NCBI RefSeq assembly: GCF_023520895.1
Contig: NZ_CP026029.1
Span: forward strand, 3,038,001-3,102,000
DNA: 64,000 bases
DNA from: Paenibacillus sp. PK3_47
GTDB taxonomy: Bacteria; Bacillota; Bacilli; Paenibacillales; Paenibacillaceae
Reading direction: 5' to 3'
Positions within the stretch are counted from its first letter, which is position 1. Each line of letters starts with the position of its first letter. Positions 4,439-62,714 of this stretch are shown piece by piece. The position numbers and the translations under genes were made by a program. The notes under the pieces were generated by a model. It did no database searches. It had not been told where the DNA came from and saw nothing but the letters and a program-made list of their open reading frames with translations.

Positions 4439-7400
4439 TTGATGGATAACTTGGCAGGTAACGGAGGTATTCTTGATCAGGCATTCATGTTATCTCCTGT
4501 GGGAATGGCCATACTGGCCTTTGAACAGGAGAAATGGATAAAGGTCAATGCCGCTTTTTGTACAATTCTCGGCTGCAATGAATCCGAGTTTCTTGCCGGT
4601 GCTCTGTTAGGCGGTGAGAAGGCTCCGCAACAGGAGTTTGACGGGCTTTCTTTTAGAGAAATAATTAAAGGGCTTTCGCTTTCATCAGGCACACCGCAGA
4701 CCCGGGAGCAGCGGTTCATCAACCCTGCAGGCCGTCCCGTATGGCTGTCTCTAACGTTTGCATGGCTTGAGGAGGGCAAGGCTACTTCACATATTATTGT
4801 ATATGCACAGGACATTACCGACCGGAAAATCGCGGACCAGCTGACTGTAGACAGCCGCGATCTGTACGATTTGTTTATAAAAAATGACCAAAGCATGATC
4901 TCCTTCACCCAGCCTGACGGAACATTAAGCTTTATTTCCCCCTCTTCTTTGACACTGCTCGGCTACGAGCCGGAAGAGATAATTGGCAGGAACAGGCTGG
5001 AGTTCTATCATCCTGACGACACCCCTGAAATGGTGAAACCGGATGGTCTCTTTAAGAATGATATATATACCCGCCGTCTCCGCCATAAGGAAGGGCACTA
5101 TTTATGGTTCGAAACCTCCTATCATGTCATCCGTGATACGGATAATGAAGTGACGCGCATTATGGGAATAGGCCGTAATGTGACCAGCCGCAAGCAGAGC
5201 GAAGAGGCCCTGGCCATGGCCCAGAGGATTGCCCGTATCGGCTCCTGGGTCTGGGACTTATCGAAGGACAAGCTTTCGTTTTCGGAAGAACTGCGCCGTA
5301 TACTGCAGTATAGTGTTGATACGTCTGAAGTGGATTACGAGACATTTAAAAAGCTGGTTCATCCGGAAGACATCGGGGACATGTATGAGAAAGTACAGAA
5401 GGCTCTGACCAAGGGCGAATCGGGAGAATCTATCTATAGGCTGATACTTCCGGATGCCACTATAATTGCGGTGAATATCCAGTGGGACGTGGTCCTGGGG
5501 CCTTCCGGCGAGCCGGTTCAGCTGATCGGCATGATGCAGGATATCACCGAACGGCAGCAGATGGAACAGCAGCTGATCGAGAATGAGCGGAACTACCGGC
5601 TGATGTCGGAACATTCGCTTGACCTCATCTCACGTCATACCATTCAGGACAGCATCTTTGTGTACTGTTCTCCGGCCAGCCGTTTTCTGCTCGGATATGA
5701 GCCGGAGGAGATGCTCGGCACCAGCGCCTATGATTATTTGCATCCGGATGATGTGAAGAGAGTGGAAGAGCTGATGGTACAGAGTGAGAAAGACCGCTTC
5801 ATCCCGGTCATTTCCTACCGTTACCGCCGCAAGGATGGAAGTTATGTCTGGTTTGAGACGAAGAGCCGGTATATTTTTGATGAGCAGGGAGAGATTGTGG
5901 AGATTATTGCTGTGGGCCGCGATATTTCGGAGCGCAAGCAGTTTGAGACGAGGCTGCAGGAGAGCGAGCAGCGGTATAAATCACTATTCGAGTACAACCC
6001 TTCGGCGGTATATTCCATGAACCTGCAGGGCGATTATTTGACGGCAAATGCCAATTTGGAGAAACTGACGGGTTACTCTCTGGAAGAACTAATAGGGATG
6101 TACTACGGGCCGATCGTACATGAGAAGGACCGTGATAGAACACAATATCATTTCACGCTGGCCAGCCAGGGCATGCCTCAGAGCTATGATCTGACGCTTA
6201 TTCATAAAGACGGCCATCTTGTGGAGATCAATACAATCAATATTCCAATTATTGTGGACGATAAAGTGGTGGGGGTCTACGGTATTTCACGTGATATTAC
6301 CGAGCGTATCCGGTATACGGAGCAGATTGAGAAGCTGAGCAATGATTACACGCTGATTCTGAATGCGGTCTCCGAAGGCATATTCGGCCTTGATACAGAG
6401 GGGAGAATAACCTTCATTAATCCGGCGGGCGCCCAAATGCTTGGCTTTGATTACGTTAACGTTATGGGCCATCCTTATCTGGACCGTATCCAGCAGACGG
6501 CACTGGACGGTGTCTATTACTCCTCACAGGAATCGCCGCTGATGCGTGCAGTGCGGGCCGGAGAGTCCTATCAGAGCAATGATGCTGTGCTGTGGCGTAA
6601 GGATGGTTCGAGCTTTCTGGCTAATTGTCAGGTTACACCGCTGTTTGACAAAGGTGAGCGCATTGGAGCGGTTGTAGTATTCCGTGATATTACTGATGAG
6701 AAGGAGATTATCCGGGCCAAGGAATCTGCTGAAAAAGCCGATCAGGCCAAGTCAGAGTTTCTGGCAATTATGAGCCATGAGCTGCGGACGCCGATGAACG
6801 GTATTATGGGGATGACGGATCTTCTGCTGGAGACCGAACTTGATGAGGAGCAGCTCGGATATGCAGAAATTATCAGCCAGAGCAGTGCTTCCCTGCTGCA
6901 TATTCTGAATGAGATTCTGGATTTCAGCAAAATTGAAGCCGGCAAAATGACCCTCATGCATGAGCCGGTTAACATAGACTGGGTTGTAGAAAGTGTCAAA
7001 GAGCTGTTCCACCCCCAGGCTAATGAGAAGAACATTGAATTGTTCTCGGAGATCACCCCGGATGTTCCTGAACTGATTATCAGTGATGCGGCAAGATTGC
7101 GTCAGATCCTGGTTAATCTGGTCGGCAATGCGGTTAAATTCACCGATCAGGGAAGGGTGTCCATCCGGGTTGAGACTGAGTTTTGCTCCAATCATAATAA
7201 GCTGACACTGAAGTTTAATGTGCGGGATACGGGAATCGGCATTGCTTCCGAGAAACAGTCCCAATTGTTCCAGTCCTTCTCCCAGCTGCATCCGTCCATT
7301 AACCGGAAGTATGGCGGTACCGGGCTGGGATTGTCCATCTGCAAGCGGCTGGTTGAGCTTATGGGCGGTGCAATTGCTATGGACAGTATAGAGGGAGAAG

Positions 7401-14312: not shown

Positions 14313-14388
14313 GCGTTGCGGAGCAGGAATCATCTGATGATTACATGCTACAATGAGCATAGTAGAGGGATGAAGGAGTGAATTGATT

Positions 14389-14931
14389 ATGAAACTGATG
14401 TTTATTTCCGATATACACGGGTCTCTATACTGGCTGGAGCGCGCCCTGGACAAGGCGGAAGAGGAAGCGCCGCATACGCTTGTGATCCTAGGGGACTTTC
14501 TGTACCATGGGCCGAGAAACCCGCTGCCGGACGGCTATGACCCGCAGGGCGTTGCCGCGCGGCTGAATGCTTACGGGAAATCGCTGGTTGCCGTACGCGG
14601 CAACTGTGATGCCGAGGTAGACCAGCTGCTGCTGCAGTTCCCGATGATGGGAGACTACGTGCTGATTCTTCATGAAGGCCGGAAGATTTATGCTACCCAT
14701 GGTCATGGCTATAGCATTGACCAGCTGCCGCCGCTTGCCGAAGGAGACGTGTTTATTCAAGGCCATACCCATCTGCCTGTGGCTGACGTCAAGAATGGTA
14801 TCACTGTGCTAAATCCCGGCTCCATTGCTTTGCCCAAAGAGAACAATCCGAACTCCTACGGGGTGCTGGACCAAGGCGTATTTACAATCAAGGACTTTGA
14901 GGGGAATACGGTAACAAGCATCAGGCTGTAA
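14389..14931 (+). CDS. yfcE: YfcE-like metallophosphodiesterase
   Basis: A 180-residue calcineurin-like phosphoesterase. All five family blocks are present: FISDIHGS, GDFLYHGPRNPLP, VRGNCD, THGHGYS and GHTHLP. Escherichia coli YfcE, its best-known relative, hydrolyses phosphodiesters in a metal-dependent way; the physiological substrate is not settled. ATG 14389 is chosen because GAAGGAG lies 10 bases upstream, while an in-frame TTG at 14383 is too close. It is single and ends at a bidirectional terminator facing the quorum-sensing pair. Confidence 0.9.
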   Translation: MKLMFISDIHGSLYWLERALDKAEEEAPHTLVILGDFLYHGPRNPLPDGYDPQGVAARLNAYGKSLVAVRGNCDAEVDQLLLQFPMMGDYVLILHEGRKIYATHGHGYSIDQLPPLAEGDVFIQGHTHLPVADVKNGITVLNPGSIALPKENNPNSYGVLDQGVFTIKDFEGNTVTSIRL

Positions 14932-14943
14932 GAGCCGGCATAC

Positions 14944-14972
14944 AAAAAGAGCTGTGCCTGAAGCACAGCTCT
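14944..14972. terminator. Bidirectional terminator between yfcE and the peptide gene
   Basis: AGAGCTGTGC (14948-14957) pairs with GCACAGCTCT (14963-14972) around a five-base loop. The minus-strand T-run is the better one, so it mainly ends the peptide transcript. Confidence 0.8.
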
Positions 14973-14989
14973 TAATGAATTAACCGTTA

Positions 14990-15115
14990 TTAACTGCCCC
15001 AGCCATGGGTCAGAGGTGTTAATACGGAGTTGCTTCCGCTGATGTCTGCCGCAGGAAGAAACAGCAGGAGCGCTGCACTAACCATTAACGCGGATACAAT
15101 TATACTTCTCTTCAT
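14990..15115 (-). CDS. Secreted signalling pre-peptide, AloP/Phr-like
   Basis: A 41-residue open frame: a positively charged start (MKRSIIVSALMV), a hydrophobic stretch (SAALLLFLPAAD), then a polar tail ending in LTPLTHGWGS. This is the build of Phr, PapR and AimP-type pre-peptides, which are exported, trimmed outside the cell to 5-10 residues and re-imported. The start codon lies inside the 3' end of the upstream TPR regulator gene (38-base overlap) with GAGGTG about 11 bases before it. The overlap and shared strand argue for a receptor/peptide pair. The mature peptide is probably taken from the C-terminal end; its exact limits cannot be read. Confidence 0.8.
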   Translation of the reverse strand: MKRSIIVSALMVSAALLLFLPAADISGSNSVLTPLTHGWGS

Positions 15116-16463
15116 TGATTCTCTGCACCTCACTAATACGATTTGTATAAAGTTCGATATGCCGGGGCGATGCCGAAATCCGGTATTTCTCAAATAAAGC
15201 CACACATCTGACAATACACGAATCACTTTTGATGTTGACCGCCATGTCCAGACTTTCTAATAAATAATCGAGGCCGGTGTCCAGTCTGTTTGCTCTCAGG
15301 TGGTATACGGCTAATTCGATTGAAAAATTGGCATACCTGTCATTGGTCAGCTGAAGGTTGTATCTGCCCAAGGTGCTGTGCTGCTGCCTAAATGATATAT
15401 AAGAATGAAAACGCTCAAGTATGTCATCAACATTGAATCTGTAGCGGTTAGCCGCCTGTATGATTTTGAATAAAGCCGGAAAAATCTCATTCTCCCGTGA
15501 TTCTACGTATTGCACATACTCTGGAAGTACGTCTGCCTGCCCGTCCATAACGCGGTACAAATAGGTATTGGCAGTGGCCCATTCCTTGAACAGATCCATA
15601 ACCCGCTGTTCCTCTGCGCTGGGTCCAGCTTTGATCCAATCCATATTGGCATACAAGGACGTATAATGCAGCGCCTTGGCATAATCTCCCCGCTCATCAC
15701 TCACTCCGGCCTGAATCAGGTATGCATACAAGATATAATAAATAAGCGGCCGGACCGGTTGCTTGTACGCGGCTTTCTTCAAGTATTTATACTGCAGCCG
15801 GGCTTTGGAGCCCAGCCGCTCAGCGAGCTCCTCTGTCTTATCCCAGCGGTGCAGGGAGGCGAAGACATCGGCAAGATGCTTGAGCGCATCCAGCTGATCC
15901 GCTTCGTCCAGCCGCTCCACATAGGGCTCGAACTGATTTGCGGCATGCAGATTGGCTTCCTGGTTATCACTTAGGCCAAGGATAAACAGCCGGTATTTGC
16001 AGAGGGCCAGACGCTCAGAATGCTGAAGTCTTTCGCCTTCGGCAACACTGGCATAGATTATCGCGGCTGCAGCAAGCCTGTCCTGATGGAACAGCTCCTC
16101 GGCCATATCAAACAGAAGAGGCAGATAGATCAGATTGTCCATAATATGCTGAACCACACGTTCAAGCGAACCCAGCTTGCCCAGTTCTGCACAGCGCTTC
16201 AGCAGCGGGCTGATTCTCCGCCAATCTGCAGCAGCATTAATGATGTAATTATCTATATACAGGTCATAGAAGTATCCCTCGGTTTGCCCCATTGTCTCGG
16301 TAATCCGGTCTAACTGCTGGACTGCAATGGGACGATGGCCGTTGATTACATTACTAAGTGTGCCGGAATTCATTCCGGACAGCCCGGCGAATTTGGATAT
16401 TGTTAAAGCTTGGCCCTTGATGTAATCTTCAAGCTCTGCAATGATTGTAGGTGCGGATTCCAA
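15078..16463 (-). CDS. HTH-TPR quorum-sensing regulator, AimR/AloR-like
   Basis: A 461-residue protein with an N-terminal helix-turn-helix (TISKFAGLSGMNSGTLSNVI, about residues 20-60) and then only helical TPR-like repeats to the end. That is the RRNPP plan (Rap, NprR, PlcR, AimR), in which an imported peptide binds the TPR groove and changes DNA binding. I recall an AimR-like family (AloR) with downstream peptide genes from Paenibacillus; this pair fits it, but I could not compare sequences. TTG 16463 is preferred because AAAGGTGG lies seven bases before it; the in-frame ATG at 16481 has no ribosome site. The peptide gene at 14990-15115 overlaps its end. Confidence 0.85.
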   Translation of the reverse strand: MESAPTIIAELEDYIKGQALTISKFAGLSGMNSGTLSNVINGHRPIAVQQLDRITETMGQTEGYFYDLYIDNYIINAAADWRRISPLLKRCAELGKLGSLERVVQHIMDNLIYLPLLFDMAEELFHQDRLAAAAIIYASVAEGERLQHSERLALCKYRLFILGLSDNQEANLHAANQFEPYVERLDEADQLDALKHLADVFASLHRWDKTEELAERLGSKARLQYKYLKKAAYKQPVRPLIYYILYAYLIQAGVSDERGDYAKALHYTSLYANMDWIKAGPSAEEQRVMDLFKEWATANTYLYRVMDGQADVLPEYVQYVESRENEIFPALFKIIQAANRYRFNVDDILERFHSYISFRQQHSTLGRYNLQLTNDRYANFSIELAVYHLRANRLDTGLDYLLESLDMAVNIKSDSCIVRCVALFEKYRISASPRHIELYTNRISEVQRINEEKYNCIRVNG

Positions 16464-16697
16464 GGCATGACCACCTTTCATGCTAAAAATACTATCAATG
16501 TAATTATATACCTTTTATTATTATTCAAAATAAATCACCGGTCAATGTTATAAATAAGACATCGGTGTGAAAAATAATCTTCCGGCCATTGCCGGCTTCT
16601 GGCAATTGAGCATACCCCCATATTATTGTATGATGGGTAAGGAGCTTTTGGGGAATCCTCCGGGTTCCAAATATAAATGTGCAGAGGTAACTGACGA

Positions 16698-17729
16698 ATG
16701 TATCCTAAAGAGTTGAACTATAGAATGCCGGCGGAGTGGGACAAGCATGAGCGGACCTACATTTCCTGGCCGGTGCAGGCATCCATGGTATTCCCGGACA
16801 ATTATGAATCCGTGAGCCGCGGATATGCCGAAATTATCTCGGCCATTGCCGAGTTCGAACCGGTGACGGTCATTGTGAATCCGGAAGAGCTGGAAACGGT
16901 CCGGCAAATGAAGCTGGGAGACAATGTGACGCTGCTGCCTGTCCGGCATAATGATGCCTGGCTGCGTGATAACGGGCCGACCTTTGTTGTTGGTGAAGGC
17001 GGCGAGCTTGCGGGTGTGAACTGGAAGTTTAACGCCTGGGGCGGCAAATATGCGCCTTGGGATCTGGATGACAATGTGGCTCCGCAGATTCTGGAACAGG
17101 CCGGCATCGGGCAATTTGACGCACCGCTGGTAATGGAAGGCGGCTCCATTCATACCGATGGAGAAGGCACGCTGATTACTACAGAGGAATGCCTGCTTCA
17201 CACGAACCGCAATCCGGAGCTGAGCCGGGAAGAGATTGAAGAATATGTGCGGAAATACACAGGCGCAGAATCGATCATCTGGCTGAAGCGCGGCCTCAGC
17301 GGTGACGAAACCGACGGCCATGTTGACAATATTGCCTGTTTTGCTGCACCAGGTAAGGTTATTATACAGGTATGCGGCGATCCGCAGGACGAGAATTATG
17401 AAATTACCCGGGAAAATCTGCGTATACTTGAGAATACGGTAGATGCCAAAGGACGCAAGCTGGAGATTGTACAGATCCAGCAGCCCCCGCGTGTGGATTA
17501 TGACGGCAGCCGGCTGACACTGAGTTATTTGAACTTCTATTTCGTGAACGGCGGCATCATCCTGCCGGTGTTCGGGGGTACAGCAGCGGAGACGGACAAG
17601 CTTGCCGAGCAGACACTTGCCGGCCTGTTCCCGGACCGCAGAATCCGTACCGTGAACGGCAACGGAGTGATCGCCGAAGGCGGGAACGTGCACTGCACGA
17701 CCCAGCAGATGCCTGCGCGGAGAGCGTAA
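16698..17729 (+). CDS. aguA: Agmatine deiminase
   Basis: A 343-residue enzyme that converts agmatine to N-carbamoylputrescine and ammonia. The N-terminal MPAEWDKHERTYISWP, the VMEGGSIHTDGEGTLITTEECLL block, the DGHVDNIACF block with its catalytic His/Asp, and the C-terminal GGNVHCTTQQMP with the catalytic Cys are all present. Length matches the bacterial family, though the tail is short. It is followed 41 bases later by the gene for the next step, so the two form a two-gene arginine-decarboxylase-dependent putrescine pathway. Confidence 0.95.
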   Translation: MYPKELNYRMPAEWDKHERTYISWPVQASMVFPDNYESVSRGYAEIISAIAEFEPVTVIVNPEELETVRQMKLGDNVTLLPVRHNDAWLRDNGPTFVVGEGGELAGVNWKFNAWGGKYAPWDLDDNVAPQILEQAGIGQFDAPLVMEGGSIHTDGEGTLITTEECLLHTNRNPELSREEIEEYVRKYTGAESIIWLKRGLSGDETDGHVDNIACFAAPGKVIIQVCGDPQDENYEITRENLRILENTVDAKGRKLEIVQIQQPPRVDYDGSRLTLSYLNFYFVNGGIILPVFGGTAAETDKLAEQTLAGLFPDRRIRTVNGNGVIAEGGNVHCTTQQMPARRA

Positions 17730-17770
17730 GAAGACGGCAATCCGGACAATTATTTGCAAGGAGGACAACC

Positions 17771-18646
17771 ATGAGAAAAGTAACAGTAGCCGCGACACAA
17801 ATGAGCTGCTCCGGCGACATTGATGAGAATATCCGCAAGGCTGAAGTCCTGGTCAGAGAAGCGGCGGCCCAGGGCGCACAAATTATTTTGCTGCAGGAGC
17901 TGTTTGAGACTCCGTATTTCTGCCAAAAAGAGAAATCCGATTATTATGCTTACGCGACCGAGCTTGAGCAGAACAAAGCGGTGAACCACTTTAAGGCCAT
18001 TGCCAAGGAACTGGAAGTAGTGCTGCCGATCAGCTTTTATGAGAAAAAGAACTACGCCCGCTATAACTCGCTTGCAGTGATCGATGCAGACGGTACAGTT
18101 CTGGGCAAATACCGCAAGAGCCATATTCCGGACGGTCCGGGCTATGAAGAGAAATTCTATTTCAATCCGGGGGATACCGGATTTAAGGTATGGAATACCC
18201 GCTATGCCAAAATCGGCGTCGGCGTATGCTGGGATCAATGGTACCCTGAAGCCGCGCGGGTCATGAGCCTTATGGGTGCAGAAATTCTGTTCTACCCGAC
18301 CGCGATCGGCTCCGAGCCGCAGGACGGCTCCATTGATTCCAAGGATCACTGGCAGACCTGCATGCTGGGCCATGCGGCGGCGAACCTGATTCCTGTCGTT
18401 GCCTCTAACCGGATCGGCGAAGAAAGCGACGAAGAGTCCAGCATCAACTTCTACGGCTCCTCATTTATTGCCGGACCGCAGGGCAACAAGATTGTGGAAG
18501 CCGGACGGGATGAGCAGGCGGTACTGGTCAGCGAATTTGATCTGGACGCGCTTGAGGTGGGGCGGATCGAGTGGGGAATTTTCCGCGACCGCCGGCCGGA
18601 GCTGTACAGAATGATCGCTTCGTATGACGGAGATCTGACTTTTTAA
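17771..18646 (+). CDS. aguB: N-carbamoylputrescine amidase
   Basis: A 291-residue nitrilase-superfamily amidase that hydrolyses N-carbamoylputrescine to putrescine, CO2 and ammonia. The Glu-Lys-Cys triad is visible: E in LLQELFETPYF, K in GKYRKSHIPDGPGY and C in GVGVCWDQWYPE. The last motif and the DHWQ block are typical of AguB rather than of other nitrilases. Start ATG follows AGGAGGACAACC. It ends the aguAB unit at a strong terminator. Confidence 0.95.
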   Translation: MRKVTVAATQMSCSGDIDENIRKAEVLVREAAAQGAQIILLQELFETPYFCQKEKSDYYAYATELEQNKAVNHFKAIAKELEVVLPISFYEKKNYARYNSLAVIDADGTVLGKYRKSHIPDGPGYEEKFYFNPGDTGFKVWNTRYAKIGVGVCWDQWYPEAARVMSLMGAEILFYPTAIGSEPQDGSIDSKDHWQTCMLGHAAANLIPVVASNRIGEESDEESSINFYGSSFIAGPQGNKIVEAGRDEQAVLVSEFDLDALEVGRIEWGIFRDRRPELYRMIASYDGDLTF

Positions 18647-21293: not shown

Positions 21294-21740
21294 ATGAGCA
21301 CATTTAAAAATTGGCTGAACACTACTAAAAGCGGATTGACCGAACAAGTTAAGAAGTTTAAGAATAAAGATTTTATGAATGCGGTGGTTGCGGGCTGTGC
21401 CCTGGTTGCTGCAGCAGACGGCAAAATTGATGATACAGAGAAGAACAAAATGGCAGGATATATGAACCTCAGCAATGAGCTTAAGGTATTCGACATGAGA
21501 GAGGTCATTGCCCAATTCAATTTCTATGTCAGCAATTTCGAGTTTTCCCCGGAGATCGGCAAGCAGGAAGCGCTTAAGGCCATCGGCAAATTCACCGGCA
21601 AGCCTGAAGTGGGACGTGTAATTGTAGGCGTCTGCTCTGCGATCGGTGCGGCTGACGGAGATTTCGACGAGCATGAGAAGGCTGTTGTACGGAATATCTG
21701 CGGTGTGCTGGGCCTGAGCCCAAGCGAGTTCAGCCTCTAA
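21294..21740 (+). CDS. terB: TerB-family tellurite resistance protein
   Basis: A 148-residue soluble protein of the TerB fold. Two acidic metal-type loops stand out, AAADGKIDDTEKNKM and GAADGDFDEHEKAVV, the paired Asp/Glu motifs of the family. TerB proteins work with TerC and TerD at the membrane in stress responses to tellurite, phage or DNA damage. The ATG follows AGAAGGAG. Just upstream is a 7-bp inverted repeat (ATCATTT, G, AAATGAT) at about 21268-21282. It is the first gene of the Ter locus, separated by 128 bases from terD, where a second promoter lies. Confidence 0.9.
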   Translation: MSTFKNWLNTTKSGLTEQVKKFKNKDFMNAVVAGCALVAAADGKIDDTEKNKMAGYMNLSNELKVFDMREVIAQFNFYVSNFEFSPEIGKQEALKAIGKFTGKPEVGRVIVGVCSAIGAADGDFDEHEKAVVRNICGVLGLSPSEFSL

Positions 21741-21772
21741 TATTCCAATTATCGTTCACTGCGTTAATCAGT

Positions 21773-21798
21773 TGAAACGAATTCGCTTCTCTGCCGTA
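21773..21798 (+). promoter_or_regulatory. ECF sigma (SigW/SigM-type) promoter before terD
   Basis: TGAAAC (21773-21778), exactly 16 bases, CGTA (21795-21798). This is the consensus for extracytoplasmic-function sigma factors of the Bacillus SigW/SigM/SigX group. The related B. subtilis yceCDEFGH operon is controlled by such factors, which supports the call. Confidence 0.85.
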
Positions 21799-21868
21799 TG
21801 AGTGATATGACATCCTGGATGTCAGTTTTTCAGGCTGTGATTCTTTTTGGAAACGGAGGTACGTAAAG

Positions 21869-22465
21869 TTGGCTGGAATTAATCTGGTAAAAGGACAGAA
21901 GATCGATTTAACAAAAGGAAACGCCGGACTTTCTAACGTCATTGTAGGTTTGGGCTGGGATCCTGCTGAGCCTGCCCGCGGATTCTTCGGGATGAAGAAA
22001 CAGGCGAATGTGGACTGTGACGCTTCGGCGCTTCTGCTCAGTGAGAACGGCAAGCTGATCAACAAGACGAACCTGGTGTGCTTCCACAACAAACAGAACC
22101 CCAACAATTCCGTTGTTCACTCCGGTGACAACCTGACTGGTGACGGGGATGGCGATGACGAGCAGATCAAAGTCAATCTGAAGGAAATTCCTGCCGATGT
22201 GCATAAGGTTCTTGTCGTAGTGAATATCTATGATGCCGTGAACCGCAAACAGGATTTCGGAATGATCAAATCTGCGTACATCCGCATCATCAATGCAGCC
22301 GGCAACAGCGAGCTGGTCCGCTTTAACCTTACGGACAATTACACAGGTTTCACTGCGCTAATCTGCGGCGAGCTCTACCGCCATGGAGGAGAATGGAAGT
22401 TTGCCGCCGTCGGCGAAGGCTCCCATGCGGCACATATCAATCAACTGGCTGAACGATACATCTGA
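21869..22465 (+). CDS. terD: TerD-family stress protein 1
   Basis: A 198-residue TerD domain protein starting [13 protein letters not shown]. TerD domains are beta sandwiches that bind calcium; the acidic loop [13 protein letters not shown] is intact. GELYRHGGEWKFAAVGEG near the end is the family C-terminal motif. This copy has an insertion (ARGFFGMKKQAN) before the DCDAS strand and ends without the usual GLxAL segment, so it is the most divergent of the three. TTG start at 21869 follows GGAGGT. It is the first gene after the ECF promoter. Confidence 0.92.
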   Translation: MAGINLVKGQKIDLTKGNAGLSNVIVGLGWDPAEPARGFFGMKKQANVDCDASALLLSENGKLINKTNLVCFHNKQNPNNSVVHSGDNLTGDGDGDDEQIKVNLKEIPADVHKVLVVVNIYDAVNRKQDFGMIKSAYIRIINAAGNSELVRFNLTDNYTGFTALICGELYRHGGEWKFAAVGEGSHAAHINQLAERYI

Positions 22466-46484: not shown

Positions 46485-46515
46485 TCTTTTTGGCTGATAA
46501 ATAACAGATTAACTG

Positions 46516-46580
46516 TTCGTATATCCTCAATGATAAGGTTTGGGGGTTTCTACAGGGAACCGTAAATTCCTGGCTACGAA
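46516..46580 (+). ncRNA. Purine riboswitch aptamer, guanine-type
   Basis: P1 is TTCGTA (46516-46521)/TACGAA (46575-46580). P2 pairs CCTCAA with the TTTGGGG run, with loop TGATAAGG. J2/3 is the invariant TTTCTAC. P3 pairs CAGGGA with TTCCTG around ACCGTAA. The GG of L2 can pair with the CC of L3, as in the known structure. The specificity base in J3/1 is C, which means guanine/hypoxanthine type, but the base before it is G rather than the common A. Confidence 0.88.
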
Positions 46581-46623
46581 TAGGGTGCATTTTGCATACC
46601 TATAATAGTCCGGGATTTTTTTG
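46564..46623 (+). terminator. Riboswitch terminator using P3 and P1 strands
   Basis: AAATTCCTGGCTA (46564-46576) pairs with TAGTCCGGGATTT at 12 of 13 positions around an inner ATAGG/CCTAT and TGCA/TGCA stem, then TTTT. It shares the 3' strands of P3 and P1 with the aptamer, so aptamer folding should block termination. Confidence 0.8.
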
Positions 46624-62622: not shown

Positions 62623-62706
62623 CCAGTAAAGGGTAAACCTGCTGAAAGGCAGGGGCACAAAGTCTCGGGTCTAATGTAGCAATACTACGACGGCCGGACT
62701 GCCTGG
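62623..62706 (+). ncRNA. Cyclic di-GMP-I (GEMM) riboswitch before sinI
   Basis: P1 pairs CCAG (62623-62626) with CTGG (62703-62706). GGGTAAACC is the conserved 5' core. A six-pair hairpin CCTGCT/GGCAGG has the GAAA tetraloop that docks in the fold. GGGGCACAAAGTC replaces the usual GGGACGCAAAGCC, keeping the CAAAG part. GGGTCTAA and GGCCGGACTGCC complete the pattern. A preceding hairpin, GATCCTT/AAGGATC (62603-62623), touches P1. No terminator follows, so control is likely on translation. Confidence 0.85.
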
Positions 62707-62714
62707 GGACGTGA

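Follow-up and report, generated by a model that had tools for sequence, protein, structure and literature searches.

The Alo (AloR/AloP) systems are among the largest peptide-signalling families per genome, and only one of them, Alo13 of P. polymyxa, has been tested in the literature that we found, which came to three papers with AloR work (PMC7425212, PMC10075063 and PMC9765709) and nothing further. Voichek et al. (2020) report 16 to 40 Alo receptors per genome and state that the Alo systems lack strong sequence similarity to other RRNPP systems; their aloP genes were sought as reading frames of 30-50 aa with a hydrophobic N-terminus, directly downstream of the receptor and free to overlap its 3' end (PMC7425212). 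For Alo13, the AloP13 peptide used experimentally is SHGRGG and the output is a downstream spo0E-like gene (PMC7425212). The RRNPP(A) family at large (NprR, PlcR, Rap and AimR; PMC9765709) likewise couples a TPR superhelix to a small secreted-peptide gene immediately downstream, an arrangement found again, with an HTH in the receptor, in the aloR-aloP pair described here. In mechanism and family this pair is ordinary for Alo; its interest lies in the loss of the usual target and in an HTH-less branch of the family encoded in the same genome.

Receptor architecture and family membership

In the window (the whole 64-kb stretch of DNA that was analysed), the receptor gene aloR occupies 15078..16463 and the peptide gene aloP 14990..15115 (ATG at 15115, stop at 14990), both on the minus strand but in different frames. 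These coordinates confirm the HTH-TPR receptor gene and the 41-codon gene overlapping it by 38 bases that an earlier note on this DNA had described, and supply the strand which that note had left out. The receptor frame is open over 15078-16481 (minus strand), and its best start is the TTG at 16463, 3' of the Shine-Dalgarno sequence AAAGGTGG (16471-16478), which gives a product of 461 aa with an N-terminal HTH (about residues 5-75) and a TPR superhelix. The HTH is detected weakly by Pfam (HTH_3, E 0.0066) and more clearly by a family profile (E 2.6e-4), so that AloR shares the HTH of the Alo receptors; it does not belong to the Rap-Phr class, in which an HTH-less TPR receptor acts on a response regulator. 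Searches of Pfam, NCBIfam and PDB sequences with AloR returned the weak HTH and stray matches, and no match to the solved RRNPP receptors, a point on which it departs from the RRNPP(A) family. An AlphaFold2 model built with 48 aligned receptors (mean pLDDT 89.6) predicts the N-terminal HTH and a superhelix of helical TPR repeats, and matches NprR with peptide (Z 15.3), apo NprR (Z 14.7) and RapI (Z 14.5). However, generic TPR proteins head the fold-match lists with equal or higher Z, and for this reason the modelled fold is taken to fit an RRNPP receptor while falling short of proof of RRNPP membership.

Family assignment draws on a family-wide DNA pattern search for SHGRGG followed by a stop, SHGRGG being the mature signal of AloP13 in P. 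polymyxa (PMC7425212). Four P. polymyxa-type genomes have this pattern at the end of a secreted pro-peptide encoded 3' of an HTH–TPR receptor and 5' of a Spo0E-like gene; searched within the window's own genus, it yielded chance frames only. AloR is 35-37% identical to the receptors directly upstream of SHGRGG, which are AloR13-type by peptide and architecture and not by the deposited AloR13 sequence, over query residues 1-449 of 461 (E about 1e-82), and tblastn against the same receptors gave 34-35% over 1-451. It is further 50-52% identical to another receptor of the SHGRGG genomes (L140-L143), the closest one there, and about 40% identical to a plasmid-borne receptor of P. polymyxa ATCC 842 itself. 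Each SHGRGG genome holds 19-27 matches to AloR, in agreement with the published receptor numbers, and 96 of 100 genomes of the window's genus have a match at E <= 1e-10, although in a number of these it is only of a shorter, HTH-less type (see below). Named homologs come mostly from Paenibacillus, then Brevibacillus, together with two plasmid records labelled Brevibacterium, and the host here, as for Alo generally, belongs to the Paenibacillaceae. By this full-length likeness to SHGRGG-linked receptors set in the Alo13 architecture, aloR-aloP belongs to the published AloR/AloP family, and it is very probably a working Alo system.

The two nearest sets of loci show both likenesses and differences. 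AloR13-AloP13 likewise pairs an HTH-TPR receptor with a pro-peptide gene overlapping the receptor 3' end, the receptors being homologous over their full length and the peptide tails being SHGRGG there and THGWGS here; however, the overlap is 50 nt in AloP13-type loci as opposed to 38 nt, and the spo0E-like gene that Alo13 activates directly downstream is missing from the window, where a terminator and yfcE stand instead. The L140-L143 receptors share the 38-nt overlap, but their peptide (..VHSHGLGGW..) carries HGxGG internally rather than at the extreme C-terminus.

The peptide gene within and beyond the overlap

The AloP pro-peptide MKRSIIVSALMVSAALLLFLPAADISGSNSVLTPLTHGWGS opens with basic residues, continues through a hydrophobic core and closes with a polar tail ending in LTPLTHGWGS, just as the earlier note had read it, and at 41 aa with a 38-nt overlap it has the size and placement by which Alo peptide genes have been recognized. 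Its predicted signal is the terminal hexapeptide THGWGS (codons at 14993..15010, minus strand), judged by position and by analogy with SHGRGG; orthologs carry THGAGG or THGWGG. The shared [ST]HGxG[GS] tail of the orthologs and AloP13 speaks against the earlier impression that this peptide looks individual. Further, the small frame accompanies the receptor in relatives, on which the earlier note had made its reading depend: the 11 closest syntenic orthologs (L039-L048 and L058) all contain aloP with the 38-nt overlap and a [LM]THG[AW]GG tail, the start, overlap and C-terminus all being conserved. Among more distant copies, L051 and L055 have the peptide gene some 165-195 nt 3' of the receptor instead, and L052 has it at a similar distance; several other receptor copies lack a peptide gene. 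In L053, near position 7385 (oriented), the receptor frame continues through the former peptide region, where a remnant, YMTHGAGG, can still be read out of frame, as though a deletion had removed the signal sequence.

The probable ribosome-binding site of aloP, GAGGTG (15126..15131, minus strand), lies within aloR codons 445-446, and it is identical in all orthologs compared, as are the codons GAG GTG that embed it. Along the 461 codons of aloR, synonymous-site identity in 8-codon windows averages 0.577 (sd 0.096), and its three highest values (0.88-0.91) start at codons 449-451, over the aloP start codon. This peak of synonymous conservation falls on the 3' end of aloR and 5' end of aloP (15078..15115, minus strand), a stretch whose sequence serves two proteins. 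An overlap of aloP with aloR is not new as such; what is measured here is the dual-coding constraint on it.

These data also bear on whether the small frame might be a chance or non-secreted reading frame, with AloR an orphan eavesdropper. The frame does have only 41 codons, partly inside another gene, and orphan Alo receptors have been described (PMC7425212). However, its start, signal-like N-terminus and THGxG tail are conserved in orthologs, and the synonymous peak sits at the overlap, which makes this explanation very improbable. Indeed, of the ATG-initiated frames of 30-60 aa in the 64-kb window, seven combine a basic start with a strong hydrophobic core, and aloP alone of these ends in HGxG. 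Because of this uniqueness, the conserved frame, overlap and tail, and the synonymous peak, aloP is more than a chance frame.

A conserved slot, a lost neighbour and possible targets

The pair is flanked by a convergent yfcE-type phosphodiesterase gene (14383..14931, plus strand), which marks the conserved slot, and by the divergent, syntenic polyamine genes aguA (agmatine deiminase) and aguB (N-carbamoylputrescine amidase) at 16698..18646 on the plus strand, which are not claimed as a target. The close ortholog group preserves the order yfcE / aloP-aloR <-> aguA-aguB, bordered on the outside by gltD and an amino-acid ABC transporter, and L051, L052 and L055 largely preserve it, while L054 and L060 carry tandem receptor copies. 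The locus is a vertically inherited chromosomal slot and not a mobile one, though AloR homologs elsewhere do occur on plasmids, and distant ones in Brevibacillus phages. Tandem arrays of 2-4 Alo receptors were seen in L054, L060, L075, L080 and L090, mostly with at most one copy having a recognisable peptide gene.

The earlier note had called the pair an "AimR-like AloR/AloP" system, of which the second term stands, given the identity to AloR13-type receptors, and the first finds no support, Alo having no strong sequence similarity to other RRNPP systems according to Voichek et al. A phage-type arbitrium (AimR-AimP) steering lysis and lysogeny would share the general logic of an HTH-TPR receptor with a peptide and could invoke the distant homologs in Brevibacillus phages. 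However, there are no surrounding phage genes, as that note itself had remarked, and the housekeeping synteny is conserved, which contradicts a phage-type reading; further, downstream of aloP there is a terminator and yfcE in place of an aimX-like gene, and the homology is clearly to Alo. This makes an arbitrium extremely improbable. The AimR family is absent among the PHROG, PDB and fold matches listed for AloR, an absence from lists that does not amount to exclusion. The earlier suggestion of phage steering likewise finds no support; the published Alo13 output is a downstream spo0E-like gene, of the kind lost at this locus.

An adjacent spo0E-like gene is present in only some Alo systems and is no requirement for membership. 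In the slot in question, a spo0E-like gene (PF09388) follows aloP in L041, L045, L051, L052, L054, L055 and L060, is truncated in L058 at about the tenth codon and survives as a short remnant in L040; it is not recognisable there in the window, L039, L043, L044 and L046-L048. In place of the orthologs' spo0E, an intrinsic terminator (14947..14973, minus strand) lies directly 3' of aloP, inside the mere 58 nt that separate aloP from yfcE. The tree makes the window the sister of the 11 close syntenic orthologs (98/78) and puts the group with the spo0E-bearing L054 and L060 beside them; given this position, loss of the adjacent gene is more economical than gain. Among the relatives the loss has occurred repeatedly. 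The receptors of L040 and L041, whose peptide is THGAGG, are identical, though L041 has spo0E and L040 the remnant, and this natural experiment allows a direct test of whether Alo pairs act on distant genes and of how density sensing is rewired to sporulation control.

It might then be supposed that aloR-aloP is a relic in decay, left functionless in this lineage by the loss of spo0E: the window lacks the cis gene, in relatives it has been disrupted or lost several times, and two full-length paralogs in the host have no recognisable peptide gene. This is highly unlikely, because receptor dN/dS is only 0.04-0.07 within the spo0E-less clade, given as L043-L048, which denotes purifying selection; both frames are also intact, and the constraint on overlap and ribosome-binding site is kept. 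Such low dN/dS values without spo0E indicate that the pair still has work to do in the absence of the adjacent gene.

One output may be aloR itself. About 80 nt upstream of its start lies a promoter or possible autoregulatory element, TTGACCGGTGATTTATTTTGAATAATA (16519..16545, minus strand), whose consensus TTGACCNNNGTTATATTNTGTATAATA is conserved upstream of most close aloR orthologs, including those with the locus elsewhere, and which occurs as a single copy in the host genome at up to three mismatches. This element (TTGACC..TGTTATATT..TGTATAATA) travels with aloR, which suggests autoregulation. That AloR now chiefly controls the divergent aguA-aguB is unlikely. The aguA start is about 230 bp from that of aloR, and the head-to-head layout is kept in close orthologs and in the distant L051, L052 and L055; however, aguA is a weak target candidate because it has its own promoter (TTGAGC-17-TATGAT; 16606..16634, plus strand), conserved in syntenic orthologs, conservation is poor between the two promoters, and aloR orthologs at other genomic sites (L049, L050, L057 and L062) have the same upstream element with no adjoining aguA.

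With the cis spo0E gone, outputs besides autoregulation would have to lie in trans, and the target of AloR is the most uncertain part of the model. A promoter element that begins about 43 nt ahead of the start codon is common to the Alo-linked spo0E genes (consensus TTTTGACA-N7-CTAAnATATTACA), and in most of the window's closest relatives unlinked spo0E-like orthologs carry it with weight-matrix scores of 27-29, the highest background score being 24.0 in 1.46 Mb with both strands counted. In the host, the unlinked spo0E-like gene (L213, 3956295-3956465, at about 3.956 Mb) also carries the element at the matching distance, in a weaker copy whose score of 18.3 falls inside that background tail; the best score in the window is 11.3, and the exact promoter pattern has no occurrence in the host genome at up to three mismatches. 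This gene is the best candidate for a trans target, and it is put forward only tentatively because the element could instead be a core promoter inherited by linked and unlinked spo0E genes alike, rather than an AloR operator, and shared ancestry explains it equally well.

Taken with the Alo13 precedent, these features allow a working scheme. A single transcript would start about 80 nt upstream of aloR, end at the terminator after aloP and encode both proteins, with translation of aloP beginning from the ribosome-binding site and start codon that lie inside the final aloR codons. The 41-aa pro-peptide would be exported by Sec and trimmed, by analogy most likely to the C-terminal THGWGS. The oligopeptide permease would bring this hexapeptide back into the cell, where its binding in the TPR groove would alter the activity of AloR as a DNA-binding regulator. 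If the sign follows Alo13, peptide-free AloR would act as an activator that the peptide turns off.

Paralogs and HTH-less relatives in the host genome

A genome search for paralogous receptor/peptide pairs, as the earlier note had proposed, gave a divided outcome: two further full-length Alo receptors (L002 and L003) have no recognisable peptide gene, while three HTH-less relatives do form pairs. The latter, AloR-like TPR proteins some 270-300 aa long, align with AloR only in its C-terminal part, starting near residue 190, and are encoded at about 155.0 kb (L179:1471-2441), 6387.5 kb (L180:1462-2419) and 921.0 kb (L181:1411-2428) of the host genome. Each receptor gene shares 4 or 44 nt at its 3' end with a downstream gene for a secreted peptide, the peptides ending in GHGVDH, SHGMGH or NHGAGH. 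Such pairs recur in many genomes of the genus, and in close relatives most of the peptides end in NHGxGH and most of their genes begin at -43 or -46. An AlphaFold2 model of one such receptor (mean pLDDT 86.8) matches the peptide-binding TPR domains of NprR, PlcR and Rap at Z 12-13 and rmsd 3.5-4.2, generic TPR proteins giving similar Z.

In the text of Voichek et al., all the Alo receptors described have an HTH (PMC7425212), and hence the HTH-less, Rap-like branch may be undescribed. The boldest reading, a possibility rather than an expectation, is that the aloR-aloP pair has repeatedly shed spo0E, has been retained and acts in trans on an unlinked spo0E with the shared promoter element, while a possibly undescribed HTH-less Alo branch with its own overlapping HG-motif peptide genes operates in the same genome in Rap-like fashion, via protein contact.

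Elsewhere in the window, Rfam models identify a purine riboswitch (46497-46596, plus strand) and a c-di-GMP-I-GGC riboswitch (62623-62707, plus strand), and genes with TerB and TerD domains (tellurite/stress) lie at 21294-22465 on the plus strand.
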